In this document: positions 5,109-29,775 of the stretch, piece after piece
Layout: every line of letters starts with the position of its first letter
How positions within the stretch are numbered: position 1 is the first letter of the stretch
IMG/VR virus record: IMGVR_UViG_3300025785_000044
Span: 1-35,649 of that record
Reading direction: 5' to 3' (one strand)
Origin: a virus
DNA length: 35,649 bases
Notes under the pieces: model-generated
What the model saw: only the letters and a program-made list of their open reading frames with translations
The model's database searches: none
Told to the model about the DNA's origin: nothing
Position numbers and translations under genes: made by a program

Positions 5109-5885
5109 TTACGATTCTTCGTTAGGTTGGAGCCCTGAAGTCGGAATTGCACCGCTATCTTCTAACAGGAAGTTAGACGCATCGCTGTTTATGCTTTCAG
5201 GGCGTGAACCTTTGTACATCCTAGCACCTGCCTTGTCGATCTCAGAGAACGGCAAGATAGGAACTGTGAGGCGCTCTTTAGCCGCAGGATCGAGGAAATA
5301 GACATACCTCAGTTGGAATCCCTCAGCCTTCTGTGCGCCAATACTGTTGAGGAACTTATGGCTTGACTCAGTGCCAACCTTGCCCCACTTTTTCTGCAAC
5401 TCTGATGAAACCCCTGTGGTGAAGTTAATGTCTGCGGCATATTCGCCGTCAGGCAGTCTCCAAATAGTCTTGTTCTTGTTAATCTGAGTCAGCACGAAGC
5501 CTGAGGCGCGGTAGATCGTTCCATCTCCGCACTGAGTGCCATCGGCGAAAGAGATTACCCACTGCAAATGGGGAGCGTGCTTCTTGAGCATCTTAAGCGC
5601 TACGCCTATTGCGCGGGACTCACTGTTCTTAGGCAGGGCATCGCTAAAGGCCATCCGGTTTAATTCGATGAAGCCGTTCCACGGGGTATCTTTGACGAGC
5701 CCCTGAGTCTTGCGCTTATCCATAGACGGGCCAAATTGAAGCGCTCCCTCTAATTTCCCGTTATAGAAAACGCCGATGTGGATTTGGGAGTTTGGCGCGA
5801 CCTTTTTACTGTAATGAATCTTCCGGACTAAGGCATTGGCCTCAGCGGAGGTGATCGGCTTTAAGATTATGTCTTTCGCGCTCAT
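5109..5885 (-). CDS. Mom-like DNA adenine hypermodification protein (GNAT-type fold)
   Basis: This 258-residue protein resembles phage Mu Mom, which converts adenine in DNA to a carbamoylmethyl form and shields DNA from restriction. Visible motifs: I-H-Y-S at 23-26, G-A-L-Q-F-G-P at 47-53, E-L-N-R-M-A-F at 74-80, S-F-A-D-G-T at 112-117 and I-Y-R-A-S-G-F at 124-130. H24, Y25, D115 and Y125 have the same order and D-to-Y spacing as the residues reported, as I recall, to be critical in Mu Mom. The start overlaps the ParB-like gene by four bases. The last 60 residues are a polar extension with no recognised domain. Family assignment is from motif memory; the exact modification is unknown. Confidence 0.85.
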   Translation of the reverse strand: MSAKDIILKPITSAEANALVRKIHYSKKVAPNSQIHIGVFYNGKLEGALQFGPSMDKRKTQGLVKDTPWNGFIELNRMAFSDALPKNSESRAIGVALKMLKKHAPHLQWVISFADGTQCGDGTIYRASGFVLTQINKNKTIWRLPDGEYAADINFTTGVSSELQKKWGKVGTESSHKFLNSIGAQKAEGFQLRYVYFLDPAAKERLTVPILPFSEIDKAGARMYKGSRPESINSDASNFLLEDSGAIPTSGLQPNEES

Positions 5886-6481
5886 ACCTGAGTCCCTAGG
5901 AATATCTCAGCCATCCGAGTCAAGGCGTTGCCATTCTTGTTCGTATTTTCCTCATCAGGGAATTCGCCCAACGCAAGGGAGGCAGAAATCGCGTTGTTCA
6001 CGATTTCGACTTGCTCATGGCTCAGGGTAAAAGTGACTTGCTGAAATGGCGACTGCTCTTTAGTGGTCTTATCAAACGCATCTGACCAGTCATCGGCGGA
6101 GGCTTTAGCGACCTTCTCAAATCCTAGGCCTTCAATATCCCAACCAAGATCCTCAAGATCAACAAGTTGGTTAGATAGCGCGATCTCATCCCATTCGGCT
6201 AATTCAGCGGAGCGATTATCTGCGAGCGCATAAGCCTTGGCGGTCTCGGAATCCCAATCATCAGGACATACGCTTACTGCGATCTCTTTCCATCCGAGAG
6301 ATCGAGCGGCTTCAAGCGTTCCGTTGCCAGCAATTACTACGCCATTATGAACAACGAGAGGTTTGCGCTGGCCAAACTTTTCGAGGCTGGCCTTAATCGC
6401 GGCAAGATTACGGCTCGAATGTTTCCGAGCGTTCTGTGGATCGAGAGTCAGGCCCCCGATTGCTACCGTTTCCAATTCCAT
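5882..6481 (-). CDS. ParB-like domain protein next to Mom
   Basis: A 199-residue protein whose first 95 residues are a ParB/Srx-like domain: DPQNARKHSSRNLAAI (17-32), the QRKPLVV strand (about 37-43) and the phage-type I-A-G-N-G-T-L-E-A-A motif (about 50-59) in place of the chromosomal GERRxxA. Helical, acidic C-terminal half without a recognised DNA-binding domain. Such proteins commonly sit beside DNA methylases or modification enzymes in phages. Four-base overlap with the Mom-like gene suggests that they are made together, possibly acting on the same DNA or nucleotide substrate. Its own 5' end overlaps the upstream small gene by 74 bp. Confidence 0.85.
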   Translation of the reverse strand: MELETVAIGGLTLDPQNARKHSSRNLAAIKASLEKFGQRKPLVVHNGVVIAGNGTLEAARSLGWKEIAVSVCPDDWDSETAKAYALADNRSAELAEWDEIALSNQLVDLEDLGWDIEGLGFEKVAKASADDWSDAFDKTTKEQSPFQQVTFTLSHEQVEIVNNAISASLALGEFPDEENTNKNGNALTRMAEIFLGTQV

Positions 6482-23951: not shown

Positions 23952-25079
23952 TTAGATATAACTGTTGTACCAAGTAACTGTTGCGGAAGTTGTACCCGCA
24001 AGTGTACCTGTTCCTGATAGGTAAAACTGATTCGCGCCCGGCTGAGCATAGAACCAGTTTGAGCCGCCCGCAACTAGATTTCGAGCAGTAGATCCGTTAA
24101 GTGTAACAAGGCGTTGCCCGAGATCAACTACGAGCGTATCCGTATTCGCGTAACTTCCTTGAATCGTAATGTAGTTACCCTGAGTGCTATTACCCACGAT
24201 CGCATTGGTAATCGGCCCAGTAATCGTGATGATTGGGTAGGTGTTAGCCCATCCAGCGTTGTTGATAGTAGTACCAGCCGCGCCACCGCCGAAAGTCAAA
24301 GGATAAACACGGTTGTATGTGCGACCGAGATAGTTCAGACCAATCAGAGAGGCAGACTGTTGAGTATTGTCGTAGAACTTAGGATCAGGCGCAAAGAAAG
24401 TCCATTGGCTTGTAATGTATCCATAAGTAAAGTCGGGAGTAATGACCGTCTTGGAATCTCTTACGCGAGCGTTAAAGAATTGAATGCTCGAGGACTGAGG
24501 CAACTTAAATTGCAACTGATTCGTTGTGGAAAAAGGTGTGTACGAGGAGGTCGGCAATAGATTACTTTTTAACAGGTTGTAGTTAGCCTGTGCGCTCATA
24601 GTCGAGTTGGCAGATCCGCCCGAGGTGTAAGTATCGGTAAGAGTCACGGGAATCGTGAAGTGAGTATTGTCGATCACGGTAAGAGTCTGAGCGGTCTGAT
24701 TGAATCCAGTACCAGCCATACCTGTAGGGTTTCCACTAGAAAGTACGCCAGTAATGGTAACAATTTGACCAGTATTAAAACCGTGATAAGCCGAAGTCGT
24801 ATAGGTGATTACACCCGTACCCGTAGCAGTCGCGCCAGTAATAGTCGCAGTGATATTGCTTGAAAGAGTCAGGATGGTCAAAGTAATAGATCGACCTCCG
24901 AGGAAATCACGACCCGAGAACATACCGTCATTGAAACCCTGATTATCATCCTGATTACGGATAACCGGCAAGCCTTCAATTCCATCAGCGGCGTTAATTT
25001 GATAAGGAGATCCAGCGCCACCGAAGGCGAATCCGTTCCATGTAAATCCGTACTGATTAAGCGAAGTCAGGGTTGCCAT
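23952..25079 (-). CDS. Distal tail protein with inserted beta domain
   Basis: 375 residues. The N-terminus (FTWNGFAFGGAGSPYQI ... EGLPVIRNQDDNQG) and the middle (LQFKLP, FNARVRD, QWTFFAPDPKFYD) match the siphovirus distal tail (Dit) family. About residues 74-160 are an extra module (HGFNTGQIVTITG ... DNTHFTIP) of a type found in other phage tail proteins. C-terminal half is a second beta sandwich. Connects tail tube and tip. Confidence 0.8.
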   Translation of the reverse strand: MATLTSLNQYGFTWNGFAFGGAGSPYQINAADGIEGLPVIRNQDDNQGFNDGMFSGRDFLGGRSITLTILTLSSNITATITGATATGTGVITYTTSAYHGFNTGQIVTITGVLSSGNPTGMAGTGFNQTAQTLTVIDNTHFTIPVTLTDTYTSGGSANSTMSAQANYNLLKSNLLPTSSYTPFSTTNQLQFKLPQSSSIQFFNARVRDSKTVITPDFTYGYITSQWTFFAPDPKFYDNTQQSASLIGLNYLGRTYNRVYPLTFGGGAAGTTINNAGWANTYPIITITGPITNAIVGNSTQGNYITIQGSYANTDTLVVDLGQRLVTLNGSTARNLVAGGSNWFYAQPGANQFYLSGTGTLAGTTSATVTWYNSYI

Positions 25080-27667
25080 TAGTAAGCCACCGCCTTATTT
25101 GATCCAGTTGGAACGGCAGGGATAATGCCCTGAGTTTGCCCGAGAGTAATAGCGGCAAGAACGCCCGCAGATACGGTAGGGAGTGAAGGGTCGGTTGTCG
25201 ATACATAGAAATTAGCGTTGCCAATAGCAGGAGCAGGGTTAGCAATTCCCGGCCCATAAGGCGCAGGTGTTGTAGAAGGTGCTGGCATATAAGCGGAAGC
25301 ATAAGGAGACGAACTTGCCACACCTAAAGTGGCAAGCAAAGCGAGAGTTGCTTGAATTTGTTTTTGCAACCCAACTAATTTGTCATCCATCGCCTTTGAG
25401 ATAGCAGAAATTTGATCGTTATACGCCTTTAGCGAAGCGGCATTAGCATCATCAAGTGCTCGTTGAGCCGTATCCATACCATCTTTGAGAGTTTGATCCG
25501 CGGCGGCTTTAGCATCATTTAAGCGTTGTAATTCAGAGGCAAGCGCATCTGATAATGTCTTGTCAGCGGCGGCAACTGATTTATTGTAAGAATCAGTAGC
25601 GGCATCGAGAGACTTATCATAAGCCCCGTTTTCTTTTGCTACCGCATCTGCAAGTTTGGCTGAATTGTCGGCAAGCAGATTAGTGAGATCAACACCGACT
25701 TGCTTATACTGATCCATCATTTGCTGAGTGGCTAATTGTGTTCCACTATTCATTTGCTTAGCAAGATCATTTAAGCCGTTATTAGATACATCTTCGATTT
25801 TGCTATAAAGAGATTTAAGTTGAGTTGCAGTTTCGGGCGTAGCATTAAGAATTGCCTGAGACATTTGATCGCCAACTTGTGGACCTTTAGCAAGAACTTG
25901 ATCAATAAAAGTTTGTGAATACCCTTGAGCGGCTAATGCACCCGCATCTTTTTGTAATTGAACTACGGAATCAAGTTGATCCTGAAGAGCAGTTTGAAGA
26001 TCTGATGCAGTATCGCCCGTCTTAAACAATGATCCAATATCGACTTTTGTAGCGTTAGCGAACGCTCCGGTCATTAAGTCAATCGAAGATTGAACGATTG
26101 CTTGACGCTTATCAGCGGCCTGTTGTTCTAGGGCAGTTGCTTGATCTGCATACTGTTTCTGAATAGCGAGCAGGTTGTCATTATGTTGAGTTAATAGATC
26201 AGCCTTTTTAGCCGCAAAATCTGCATCGATTGCCTTGATCGCTTCTGTATGAGTTTTTTCGGCATTAGCAGAAGCCTCATCGTAAGCCTTTTGAGCCGAA
26301 GCATAAGCCTCTGCGTGTCTGCGATTAAGATCATCTTTTGTATTGTTAAAAGTTTGCAACGCTCTTGCTTCAGCATCTCTCTTGGTCTGCATAGCCGCAT
26401 CCATCTGAGTTTGCCGATCAAGAAGATCAGTATTGTATTGCTCATCTAATTTTGTAAGAGTAGCGAGATTGCTCTTAACCAATGCTTCGTGTTTAGCCGC
26501 GGCAGTCTGAGCCGCTTTGAGAACATTTCCAGCCGCACCTAATCCGCCACCGACTTCCGTATCCCCGCCTGTAGATATACCACCGGAACTTGCAAGCGCG
26601 CCACCGAGAGTTGGGAGCGTAATCTTTTTATTTGCTAGGGAGTCAAGGCTTGTTCCGAACTTGCCAACTGCTAGAGCGGCTTCGTCCACACCTTTACCAA
26701 TAGCCTTAAAAGGCTCACCGAGAATTGGAATCTTTGCGACGGTATCGACTACCTTAGCGATCGCTCCGAGCAGGTAGCCGAATGCCCCTACAACGACCTC
26801 TACGACCCCTACAATGACCTTTCGCAAGCCTTCGTGGGTATTCCATAGGTTAATGAGTTGCTTGATCCACGCGCCCAATGTGGCGTTATAGAGGAACTCG
26901 ATCGCAGGGATCAGTACCCCAGTAATAAACTCCATTAACTTCGTCAGGATAGGCATAACGACTGCGCCCACCTTGACGGCTACATCATCAAACTTAGCCT
27001 TGAGGATTTCCATTTCGCCAGCGAAGGTATGGGTATAACCAACGGCTTGCCCACCGATCTTGCCGTTCAATTCATCCATCGCCTTAGCAATAGCCTGATT
27101 CTTAGGGAGAGTGGTATCTAAGGTGATACCGAATTCCTTAAATGCCTTCGCCGATCCCATTGTTCCTTTTTCAAGGGTTCCGGCGGCCTCTGCCAATGAC
27201 TCGTGCTTGTAGCGAGCAAGATCAGCCGCCATCGACATAAGTTTTGTTGATTCAGTCGTAGATCCGGTGGCAGTAATTAACTTGGTATATGCGGTTTCGG
27301 AATCCTTAACGGAAAATCCTAGAGAACTCATCTTCTCTGTAGTCGCAGTAACCTCAGCACGGTTAGCGGCGGTATTCTGCTTTGCGTTATTCATCGCAGT
27401 CGAGAGTTGCTCAGTAGCGACCTGCGTATCTTGGATAGCCTTTACTGCATCATGGAGTCCGGTAGTGAGAATCTGCAATCCCTGAGTCATTACATTGCCA
27501 GCGAATACGCCAAGCATCGTGGACTTGAGGGAGTCGAACTTTGAATTCTGCTCTTTAGCGGTATCGCCGATCTTATTTAATCCGGCGGTAGCCTCTTGAA
27601 CTGCGGCAGTAAGGTTGGAGAGTTGTACGAGGATTTCGACATTTAATGGAGGAACTTCACCTGCCAT
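25079..27667 (-). CDS. Tape measure protein
   Basis: 862 residues, right after the chaperone and gp10-like genes. N-terminal helical domain (FDSLKSTMLGVFAGNV), transmembrane-like stretches around residues 235-300 (IEFLYNATLGAWI, VIVGVVEVVVGAFGYLLGAI), then long coiled coils with repeated A/K/D-rich segments. At about 1.5 angstrom per residue it predicts a tail near 130 nm. One-base overlap with the distal tail gene. Confidence 0.92.
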   Translation of the reverse strand: MAGEVPPLNVEILVQLSNLTAAVQEATAGLNKIGDTAKEQNSKFDSLKSTMLGVFAGNVMTQGLQILTTGLHDAVKAIQDTQVATEQLSTAMNNAKQNTAANRAEVTATTEKMSSLGFSVKDSETAYTKLITATGSTTESTKLMSMAADLARYKHESLAEAAGTLEKGTMGSAKAFKEFGITLDTTLPKNQAIAKAMDELNGKIGGQAVGYTHTFAGEMEILKAKFDDVAVKVGAVVMPILTKLMEFITGVLIPAIEFLYNATLGAWIKQLINLWNTHEGLRKVIVGVVEVVVGAFGYLLGAIAKVVDTVAKIPILGEPFKAIGKGVDEAALAVGKFGTSLDSLANKKITLPTLGGALASSGGISTGGDTEVGGGLGAAGNVLKAAQTAAAKHEALVKSNLATLTKLDEQYNTDLLDRQTQMDAAMQTKRDAEARALQTFNNTKDDLNRRHAEAYASAQKAYDEASANAEKTHTEAIKAIDADFAAKKADLLTQHNDNLLAIQKQYADQATALEQQAADKRQAIVQSSIDLMTGAFANATKVDIGSLFKTGDTASDLQTALQDQLDSVVQLQKDAGALAAQGYSQTFIDQVLAKGPQVGDQMSQAILNATPETATQLKSLYSKIEDVSNNGLNDLAKQMNSGTQLATQQMMDQYKQVGVDLTNLLADNSAKLADAVAKENGAYDKSLDAATDSYNKSVAAADKTLSDALASELQRLNDAKAAADQTLKDGMDTAQRALDDANAASLKAYNDQISAISKAMDDKLVGLQKQIQATLALLATLGVASSSPYASAYMPAPSTTPAPYGPGIANPAPAIGNANFYVSTTDPSLPTVSAGVLAAITLGQTQGIIPAVPTGSNKAVAY

Positions 27668-27670
27668 CGG

Positions 27671-28138
27671 TTACGCTCCCATCGCTCGTCGAACTTCGTC
27701 ACGGATATAAGCGGAAGCCCTGCCCGATTGTACCAAGTAATCACGCGCTGGAATCATATAAGGGAACTTGACTCCATCTTTCCAGCGACTTGATCCCAAT
27801 TCAACGGCTCGTGCGTATTCAGCACCGGAGGTTGCACTCGCAGTATAAGTTTCGAAGCCAACACGACGGACAGGATTGCCAATAATGTTGCGAAAGAGAT
27901 TTCCGGTCGCATAGTTTGGACCTTCGCCATCTCTCGGACCAATATGAGGGTTATAGCGAAGCCTGTTATTTTTTTGCACCGGTGGGTTCTTGACTTCGCT
28001 TGCATTTTTTTTTGCTTGGAAAACTAAGTCCTGAGTAATCTTTTGAGTCGCACGATAGCCGGCATCATCCATACGCTTTTGCCAAGCATTGAGAGCCGCT
28101 AGGACTTCAGGCAAGTTGCTCGATACGCTATCGCTCAC
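27671..28138 (-). CDS. HK97 gp10-like neck or tail protein
   Basis: 155 residues from the GTG at 28138, which overlaps the stop of the frameshift product (GTGA). Contains an N-terminal helix, G-P-R-D-G-E-G-P-N-Y-A-T-G-N-L, and S-G-A-E-Y-A-R-A-V-E-L-G-S-S-R-W near the end, typical of gp10/tail-completion proteins. Placed between chaperone and tape measure instead of in the neck block. Confidence 0.75.
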   Translation of the reverse strand: MSDSVSSNLPEVLAALNAWQKRMDDAGYRATQKITQDLVFQAKKNASEVKNPPVQKNNRLRYNPHIGPRDGEGPNYATGNLFRNIIGNPVRRVGFETYTASATSGAEYARAVELGSSRWKDGVKFPYMIPARDYLVQSGRASAYIRDEVRRAMGA

Positions 28139-28685
28139 TTACGGCTCTCCATCTTTTCGATCTTAACTTCTTCGACTGCATCTGCAATCGCTAAGAGCCA
28201 ATCTGCCTTAGCCGCTGGCAAGTTATCCACCTGCTCAGGAGTCCAGCCAAAACGATCAGCGAACTTGAAGTAAAACCACTCTGTTGTCGGATACTCAAGG
28301 GTATCCGATTTTTGGAATCCCCTGAATAAATCCTTGAGCCGTTCTAGTTTTCTAAAGGGCTATCGGGGTTCAGCCTATTCTCGTCTGAGTCATTAAGGCT
28401 TGGGAAAAGTTCAGTTGTAAGGTGATCTGTTTCCTTCATCAACGCGGTGTAGTCAGGGATAGACAATTCCTCAATCGAGTCAATCTTGACCGAAGGGATT
28501 AAAAGATCGAGTGACCAATCCTCAATGATCGCCGCTAACAGAGCGTTGCTGATAGCAATACCTTTTTCGGCTTGTGATTCAGCATCGCCAGCGCGCATAA
28601 TGCGGTTGCGATCCTTGACTTTTAATTCAGTCGCATCTTTAATTGTTACTGTCGCGCCTGACGGTAGCGTAATTTTCTTTGACAT
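28135..28685 (-). CDS. Tail assembly chaperone, long form by -1 frameshift
   Basis: The short form's frame slips at CCCTTTA (28359-28353): codons CCT-TTA are read, then the ribosome moves back one base and continues AGA-AAA-CTA. The added 72 residues (RKLERLKDLFRGFQKS ... EKMESRK) contain W-F-Y-F-K-F-A-D-R-F-G-W, a hallmark of the gpGT-type extension. Total is 183 residues. The product ends at 28135 and shares its TGA with the start of the next gene. Helps assembly of the tape measure. Confidence 0.9.
28344..28685 (-). CDS. Tail assembly chaperone, short form
   Basis: 113 residues; ATG at 28685 behind a perfect AGGAGG. Starts MSKKITLPSGATVTIKD, typical of chaperones located between major tail protein and tape measure. 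Ends SPLEN just after the slippery heptamer. This is the main product in the family; the long form is made in a small fraction of rounds. Confidence 0.88.
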   Translation of the reverse strand: MSKKITLPSGATVTIKDATELKVKDRNRIMRAGDAESQAEKGIAISNALLAAIIEDWSLDLLIPSVKIDSIEELSIPDYTALMKETDHLTTELFPSLNDSDENRLNPDSPLEN

Positions 28686-28794: not shown

Positions 28795-29775
28795 TTATGC
28801 GACTGAAGTTGTTACTGCGTTCTTTACGACCCACTTGATAGGTGAGTATCCGACAGTTCCGGCATCAGTCAAGTTGCCTTGCGCGTTGAAATCGACGAGA
28901 ACTTCTACGAAGTCCTTTGAGCGTTCAATAACGGCGAGTGTGTATGCACCCTTAGTCATTGTTGCCTGAATCGAAGTCTGTGATGCACCTGTTCCAGTAG
29001 TCCAGTTAAAGACGAGAGCAGGTTGAGTGTTGGTGAGATAGTTAGTGAGTTGGGTGTCGTTTTCCATAAGGAAAGTCGCCTTGCCAGTCACTTCGAGCGC
29101 ACCGAGGAATACCTGATACGGAGTCTGCACATTTGAGATTCCATAGATAGGAGTTACTGGGCGCTTGAGGTCGATATTTCCCTGAGTTGAGTTAGAGATA
29201 GAAGTACCACCAACGCTAACTGTTCCAGTCCATACGACTGAAGGGAGAACGGTTGAGAATGATGGGGTTGGGGTGGAAGTTGTTGCTGAAACCCATCCGG
29301 TTGACTTTGCATCGTACTCAAGGAGTCCGTCTGCGTTCCACTTAAGCGAGAAGTCATGGAACTGGTGACCAGCCCACGCACGAACATTCGCACCGTAGTA
29401 ATCAAGGATTGTGTACGCAGATGGCTGAGCATCGGAAGCCGTAGCCGTTGTGTTCTTGAGGGCGAGAGTGTGAGTGTAAGGCGCAGATCCAGTAACTACA
29501 TCTTCGCCAAGTACGCCAGCGAGAGGGTAAAGGATTGTGTCTGCGAATACTGCTCCACCAAAATCGAAGGTTGAGTGAACGCGACCCTGCAAGTAGTTGT
29601 AATTCTTTACGAGAGATCCACGGAGACCTTCGTCGTAAAGAGGTGTGTAAATATCCTGAGGCTTGATGGTGTTCGCAATTACAGGGATATAAGCGGTTGG
29701 AGTTGTTACCGCAGTTCCCTTAGTAGTTTCCTTAGCGATTCCAATATACGAACGATGGGTATTTTGAACTGCCAT
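28795..29775 (-). CDS. Major tail tube protein
   Basis: 326 residues starting MAVQNTHRSYIGIAKETTKG, the classic opening of siphovirus tube proteins, with A-Y-I-P-V, G-L-R-G-S and the GAVFADTILYPLAGVLG segment that matches the Phage_TTP family. Extra loops (TPSFSTVLPSVVWTG) are present. Forms the tube hexamers; expected to be highly expressed, as the stem-loop after it also suggests. Confidence 0.9.
   Translation of the reverse strand: MAVQNTHRSYIGIAKETTKGTAVTTPTAYIPVIANTIKPQDIYTPLYDEGLRGSLVKNYNYLQGRVHSTFDFGGAVFADTILYPLAGVLGEDVVTGSAPYTHTLALKNTTATASDAQPSAYTILDYYGANVRAWAGHQFHDFSLKWNADGLLEYDAKSTGWVSATTSTPTPSFSTVLPSVVWTGTVSVGGTSISNSTQGNIDLKRPVTPIYGISNVQTPYQVFLGALEVTGKATFLMENDTQLTNYLTNTQPALVFNWTTGTGASQTSIQATMTKGAYTLAVIERSKDFVEVLVDFNAQGNLTDAGTVGYSPIKWVVKNAVTTSVA

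Follow-up and report, generated by a model that had tools for sequence, protein, structure and literature searches.

A putative programmed −1 frameshift at C_CCT_TTA in the probable tail chaperone gene of an uncultured phage

Tailed phages are well known to make two chaperone versions by frameshifting, and work by Xu, Hendrix and Duda from 2004 is said to have established the frameshift as a conserved feature of dsDNA phage tail assembly genes. The lambda slip heptamer is GGGAAAG. The frameshifted lambda pair gpG/gpGT, as described in an excerpt of PMC5009743, is the system to which we liken two overlapping frames in the window, meaning the whole 35,649-base IMG/VR virus record analyzed here (48% G+C). 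Sequence comparison leads us to a probability of about 0.93 that these frames encode a chaperone pair of the lambda G/GT type, made through programmed −1 ribosomal frameshifting, and the slip very likely takes place at CCCTTTA. The gene architecture, the relation of the two frames, their conservation and the coding signal are all directly visible in the window and its relatives. A frameshift at this place is ordinary in kind; its modest point of interest is that the slip codons switch between TTT and AAA.

Gene order and identity of the short form

The genes concerned all lie on the minus strand, in the order tail tube, 113-residue ORF, −1 extension, HK97-gp10-like gene and tape measure. The tail tube gene (28795..29775; PF18906, E = 3.6e-23) is the upstream neighbor of the zero-frame ORF, the G-like short form (28344..28685). 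This ORF starts at ATG 28685-28683, preceded by an SD-like AGGAGG at 28695-28690, and stops at TAG 28346-28344. The T-like extension in the −1 frame (28135..28356, 73 codons counted from TTT) is followed by a member of the HK97-gp10-like/neck protein family (27671..28138; PF04883, E = 0.00019; phrog_5, E = 1.4e-8) and then by the tape measure gene (25079..27667; phrog_1272, E = 8.1e-6). A short ORF is therefore found between the tail tube and tape measure genes, the position typical of lambda G/GT-type chaperones, with one gp10-like gene intervening before the tape measure. In-frame A_AAA_AAA and A_AAA_AAT runs also occur within the gp10-like gene itself, at 28013, 28010 and 27974.

The initial annotation named the 113-residue ORF a tail chaperone gene, a name that draws support from the tail gene context and from a weak match to an HK97-chaperone-like fold. 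The window short form scores E = 0.023 against Phage_TAC_7 (15.2 bits, below the cut-off of 25 bits), a profile matched weakly by 7 of 14 short forms (best E = 0.011). The phrog_166 tail protein is likewise matched weakly by 7 of the 14 (best E = 0.0026), and a named tail assembly chaperone PHROG is hit, again weakly, by a single short form among the 14 (E = 0.096) and a single extension among 22 (E = 0.019). Sequence searches found no solved chaperone structure up to E = 1. Among cultured-phage proteins, no homolog was found for the short form at an E limit of 1e-5, nor for the extension of a relative (L146) at an E limit of 0.01.

AlphaFold2 models the short form with moderate confidence (mean pLDDT 72.7). 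Foldseek identifies the HK97 tail assembly chaperone (2ob9) as its top match among solved structures, with middling scores (probability 0.82, E = 0.19, TM = 0.44) and 18% identity in the alignment. Realignment of the Foldseek list places 3klu YqbN first, which we take to be a tail chaperone relative (Z = 6.2, 79 aligned, rmsd 3.4), followed by 2ob9 (Z = 5.0, 75 aligned, rmsd 4.1) and 3fgx (Z = 4.5, 83 aligned, rmsd 3.9); with Z below 8, such matches may arise from chance arrangements. The natural reading, from gene context plus weak fold likeness, is that the short form is a tail chaperone. By analogy with lambda (PMC5009743, in excerpt), binding to the tape measure protein would fall to the short part, and recruitment of tail tube subunits to the extension.

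The junction of the two frames

The zero frame ends in AGC CCT TTA GAA AAC TAG, which places C_CCT_TTA (28353..28359) in X_XXY_YYZ phase within ORF 28685..28344, as first described. The distance from the heptamer to the short-form stop had been put at 7 bp and needs correction to six bases. A TAG that closes the −1 frame can be read directly 5′ of the heptamer (28360..28362). The frames overlap by 13 nt only, bounded by TAG in both, and the heptamer makes up the first seven of these bases. A −1 shift ahead of the overlap meets the upstream TAG and one behind it comes past the zero-frame stop, so any −1 shift must fall within the 13 nt. Read in the −1 frame, the sequence gives FRKLERLKDLFRG... 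and runs to TGA at 28137-28135. This stop overlaps the GTG of the next gene (28138-28136) as GTGA, in keeping with the earlier observation that the extension ends on the following start codon. CCCTTTA is not a rare word in the window, occurring four times on both strands against 3.45 expected. A scan of the 22 other long window ORFs for eight heptamer types returned 10 in-frame heptamers, none of them CCCTTTN; given these occurrences, an in-frame heptamer alone proves nothing.

Most ribosomes would read the zero frame to TAG 28346-28344 and release the short chaperone. In a minority, tRNA-Pro on CCU and tRNA-Leu on UUA would re-pair one base back with CCC and UUU; for tRNA-Pro(GGG), this move from CCU to CCC should be cognate. 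With a tandem slip, these ribosomes would continue to 28135 and gain 72 residues after the leucine; we infer both the slip and its efficiency.

The extension frame looks coding throughout. Over extension codons 5 to 42, the differences between the window and 57 CCCTTT-type rows number 484, 433 and 1143 at codon positions 1, 2 and 3, respectively, and pairwise comparison of 22 representative extensions gives 2179, 1470 and 4718. An alternative is that the second frame forms an independently initiated gene, the overlap then reflecting only translational coupling. The ORF caller does report a GTG-started ORF at 28230-28135, and among the matches listed many relatives have some earlier ATG, GTG or TTG in the extension. 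In the extension frame of the window, none of these three codons precedes 28230 (codon 43), and initiation there would lose 42 of the 73 residues together with 13 of the 19 columns that are invariant in an alignment of 22 chosen extensions. Furthermore, 7 of 142 relatives among the matches listed have no ATG, GTG or TTG anywhere in the extension, and the places of the first such codon vary in the others. The second frame is thus found in −1, overlapping and without a start of its own. This scarcity of start codons makes independent initiation unlikely, and we consider a separate gene very improbable. The programmed −1 frameshift proposed in the initial annotation is supported by the phase of the heptamer, the confined overlap, the coding −1 frame and the tail gene context.

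Relatives were drawn from four viral_contigs scans, as the best 80 each of 258, 151, 171 and 231 matches (L002-L309), a sample that leans to kin of three queries, namely the window, L146 and L069. Of the 308 loci among these listed matches, 307 matched the extension and 305 matched both frames, and the −1 relation holds in all 305. Five loci on three contigs (L003, L258, L062, L131 and L181), in which the zero frame stops early, were left out of the junction count, as were L080 and L216 (contig edge, zero-frame match absent) and one locus without an extension match. The premature chaperone stops of the five could represent decay or assembly error. The remaining 300 loci collapse to 142 distinct junction sequences, and L002 has a junction identical to that of the window. 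An in-phase slippery heptamer is present at 141 of these 142 junctions among the matches listed: 84 are CCCAAAA, 52 CCCTTTA and five CCCTTTG, bringing the TTT forms to 57. The odd one (L251, on the same contig as L033) reads TCCTTTA; the canonical heptamer is absent there, which counts against the slip. The junctions are not independent, forming 67 groups at 90% identity and 36 at 80%, none of which mixes AAA and TTT forms. Elsewhere in these reading frames, the background of in-frame XXXYYYZ is 107 among 17,584 positions, and the presence of a slippery heptamer in 141/142 of the listed junctions is beyond chance. A slippery heptamer is thus kept across relatives, as in a lambda G/GT-type frameshift.

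These counts also bear on the concern that a frameshift mutation or sequencing error has split one gene in the record. In its favor, the source is a metagenome assembly, and five relative loci do have a premature zero-frame stop. Such an accident is already contradicted, on the sequences compared, by the same −1 relation in 305/305 loci and the heptamer in 141/142 junctions among the matches listed, and we regard it as exceedingly improbable.

Five further loci come from a scan of a genome collection, all of them Actinomycetota (one MAG and four strains: Acrocarpospora, Actinomadura, Trebonia and Parafrankia), and an actinobacterial host is likely for the uncultured phage lineage. Three of the five (L312, L313 and L316) carry in-frame CCCAAAA. 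L315 has ACCCCT in place of the heptamer, and L314 (Actinomadura) contains no in-frame XXXYYYZ in the overlap; both count against the slip. L315 and Arthrobacter phage Mufasa8, as apparent distant kin, seem to use C_CCT-type sites, which may mean that the proline slip counts most. They favor a different slip route, either slippage of one tRNA, on C_CCU or at another place within the 13 nt, or transcriptional slippage, to which we give only a slight chance. AAA or TTT as second triplet would be unnecessary for a one-codon slip on CCU, yet 141 of 142 junctions among the matches listed have it, and three-base runs fall short of what transcriptional slippage usually requires. Tandem slippage at the heptamer is the reading we retain.

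Slip-site quality, stimulators and the exchange of slip codons

The initial annotation considered CCCTTTA an uncommon choice. This is fair insofar as the heptamer falls outside the best E. coli classes, but the family uses it as one of its two regular forms. The excerpted text of a survey of 64 heptamers in E. coli gives V_VV.A_AA.R, H_HH.U_UU.Y and a few single motifs as the best, and states that efficient heptamers want an A-site codon that is all purine or all pyrimidine (PMC4066793). By this high-efficiency rule (Sharma 2014; PMC4066793, in excerpt), the mixed UUA in the A site makes C_CCU_UUA second-rate and counts against the slip, whereas the CCCAAAA relatives do satisfy the rule. CCCUUUA is listed as a slippery motif in an FSDB table (PMC3500957, in excerpt), and the authors of PRFect report every base at every position among SEA-PHAGES sites (PMC10885494, in excerpt). 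C_CCU_UUA is an uncommon but not unknown slip site. No paper was found in the open-licence literature that names CCCTTTA as the tail chaperone slip site of a phage; where the motif appears in one phage paper (PMC8270828), it is an attachment site. A rare-codon pause at TTA was rejected, as TTA accounts for 12% of leucine codons in 22 ORFs and is not strikingly rare.

A possible stimulatory stem-loop (28273..28344, inner hairpin 28333-28289) begins 8 nt past the heptamer and is pronounced in the window and its nearest relatives. The 75 bases after the site fold in the window with −26.8 kcal/mol (z = −3.3), and 0 of 150 synonymous recodings are as low; a longer stretch gives z = −2.9. Among the 16 chosen sequences of this recoding test, the nearest kin L259 and L270 likewise fold below all 150 recodings and L248 is weaker (6/150 as low). 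The signal loses significance in L292 and L294, and the folds of L089 and L303 are worse than average. Measured against 60 dinucleotide shuffles, 55 representatives have a mean z of −1.2 (CCCTTT type −0.6, CCCAAA type −1.5), with the window itself at −5.2. No family-wide downstream structure was found across these 55, which counts against the slip reading. The local stem-loop may help slippage in the subclade of the window and is not a family feature. A pseudoknot proposed by eye, pairing CTCAAGG after the stop with the loop CCTTGAG inside TCGGATA...TATCCGA, was discarded: close relatives lose some of the pairs, and CCCTTT-type representatives reach a folding z of no more than −0.6 on average.

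Between 4 and 20 bases upstream, 51 of the 52 CCCTTTA rows lack an SD-like stimulator, which again counts against the slip. GAGG, GGAG or AGGA does occur in this interval in 5/5 CCCTTTG and 40/84 CCCAAAA rows among the matches listed, and the element may matter in those two forms.

A quick tree was built from 139 of 144 rows (the 142 junctions, the window and L312, less five short rows), with junction residues excluded. The AAA/TTT label needs eight changes on this tree, at least four of which are required by branches supported at 95 or more, so the slip property outlives its codons: the encoded zero-frame residues vary (Pro-Leu vs Pro-Lys) and the slippery pattern persists. Short-cassette recombination, as an alternative to point change, could lie behind some of the switches. 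The two forms also differ in their surroundings. A stop directly 5′ of the heptamer in the −1 frame is present in 54 of 57 CCCTTTA/G relatives vs 2 of 84 with CCCAAAA (among the matches listed), and the CCCAAAA form mostly has nine extra bases ahead of the zero-frame stop. TCC, found in two rows, would preserve the heptamer as well as AGC does; the TAG may reflect ancestry or function.

A broader proposal has two parts. The slip site would be an exchangeable module, in which C_CCU_UUA (mostly UAG-preceded) and C_CCA_AAA have been exchanged several times with slipperiness never lost, and C_CCU_UUA would be efficient in the actinobacterial host by virtue of tRNA-Leu(UAA) or the subclade stem-loop. 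We offer this joint claim tentatively and, taken as a whole, consider it rather unlikely. AAAA, TTTA and TTTG at homologous places, along with C_CCT in the apparent distant kin, constitute a natural series of slip sites, from which one may ask what sites actinobacterial ribosomes accept. The series is useful because the systematic rules (PMC4066793, in excerpt) were measured in E. coli.

Comparison with known frameshift systems

The window differs from lambda in its C_CCU_UUA heptamer and in the extra gp10-like gene between chaperone and tape measure, and its sequence similarity to named chaperones is marginal. The G/T pair of E. coli phage 9g also has a tail chaperone slip site that contains CCCUUU, but this site, CCCUUUUUUU, is described as −2 (PMC4276943, in excerpt). 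CCCUUUA itself has been proposed as the −1 heptamer in the CP/RdRp overlap of giardiavirus. Giardiavirus is a eukaryotic dsRNA virus, however, and the excerpted paper argues against −1 in its isolates (PMC8230311). Within bacterial sequences, CP003186.1 (THSA-485A) has at 6136-6402 a frame open in −1 relative to Tsac_2850, with a 55-nt overlap and an in-frame G_GGT_TTT. Weakly similar to the window extension, it is a candidate chaperone frameshift.

Mufasa8 (MN586027.1) has the same gene order as the window, with its minor capsid gene gp15 in the place of the gp10-like gene. A −1 open frame at 5413-5712 overlaps gp13 by 97 nt. This extension aligns to that of the window with an hhalign probability of 67% (E = 5.3e-5), and the alignment of the short forms is weak (probability 10%, E = 0.0033). 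The slip region reads TTCCCCT; in the record, gp13 and gp14 stand as distinct hypothetical genes. From these alignments, gp13/gp14 is probably an unannotated chaperone frameshift, suggesting that annotation can miss chaperone extensions even when the phage is cultured.
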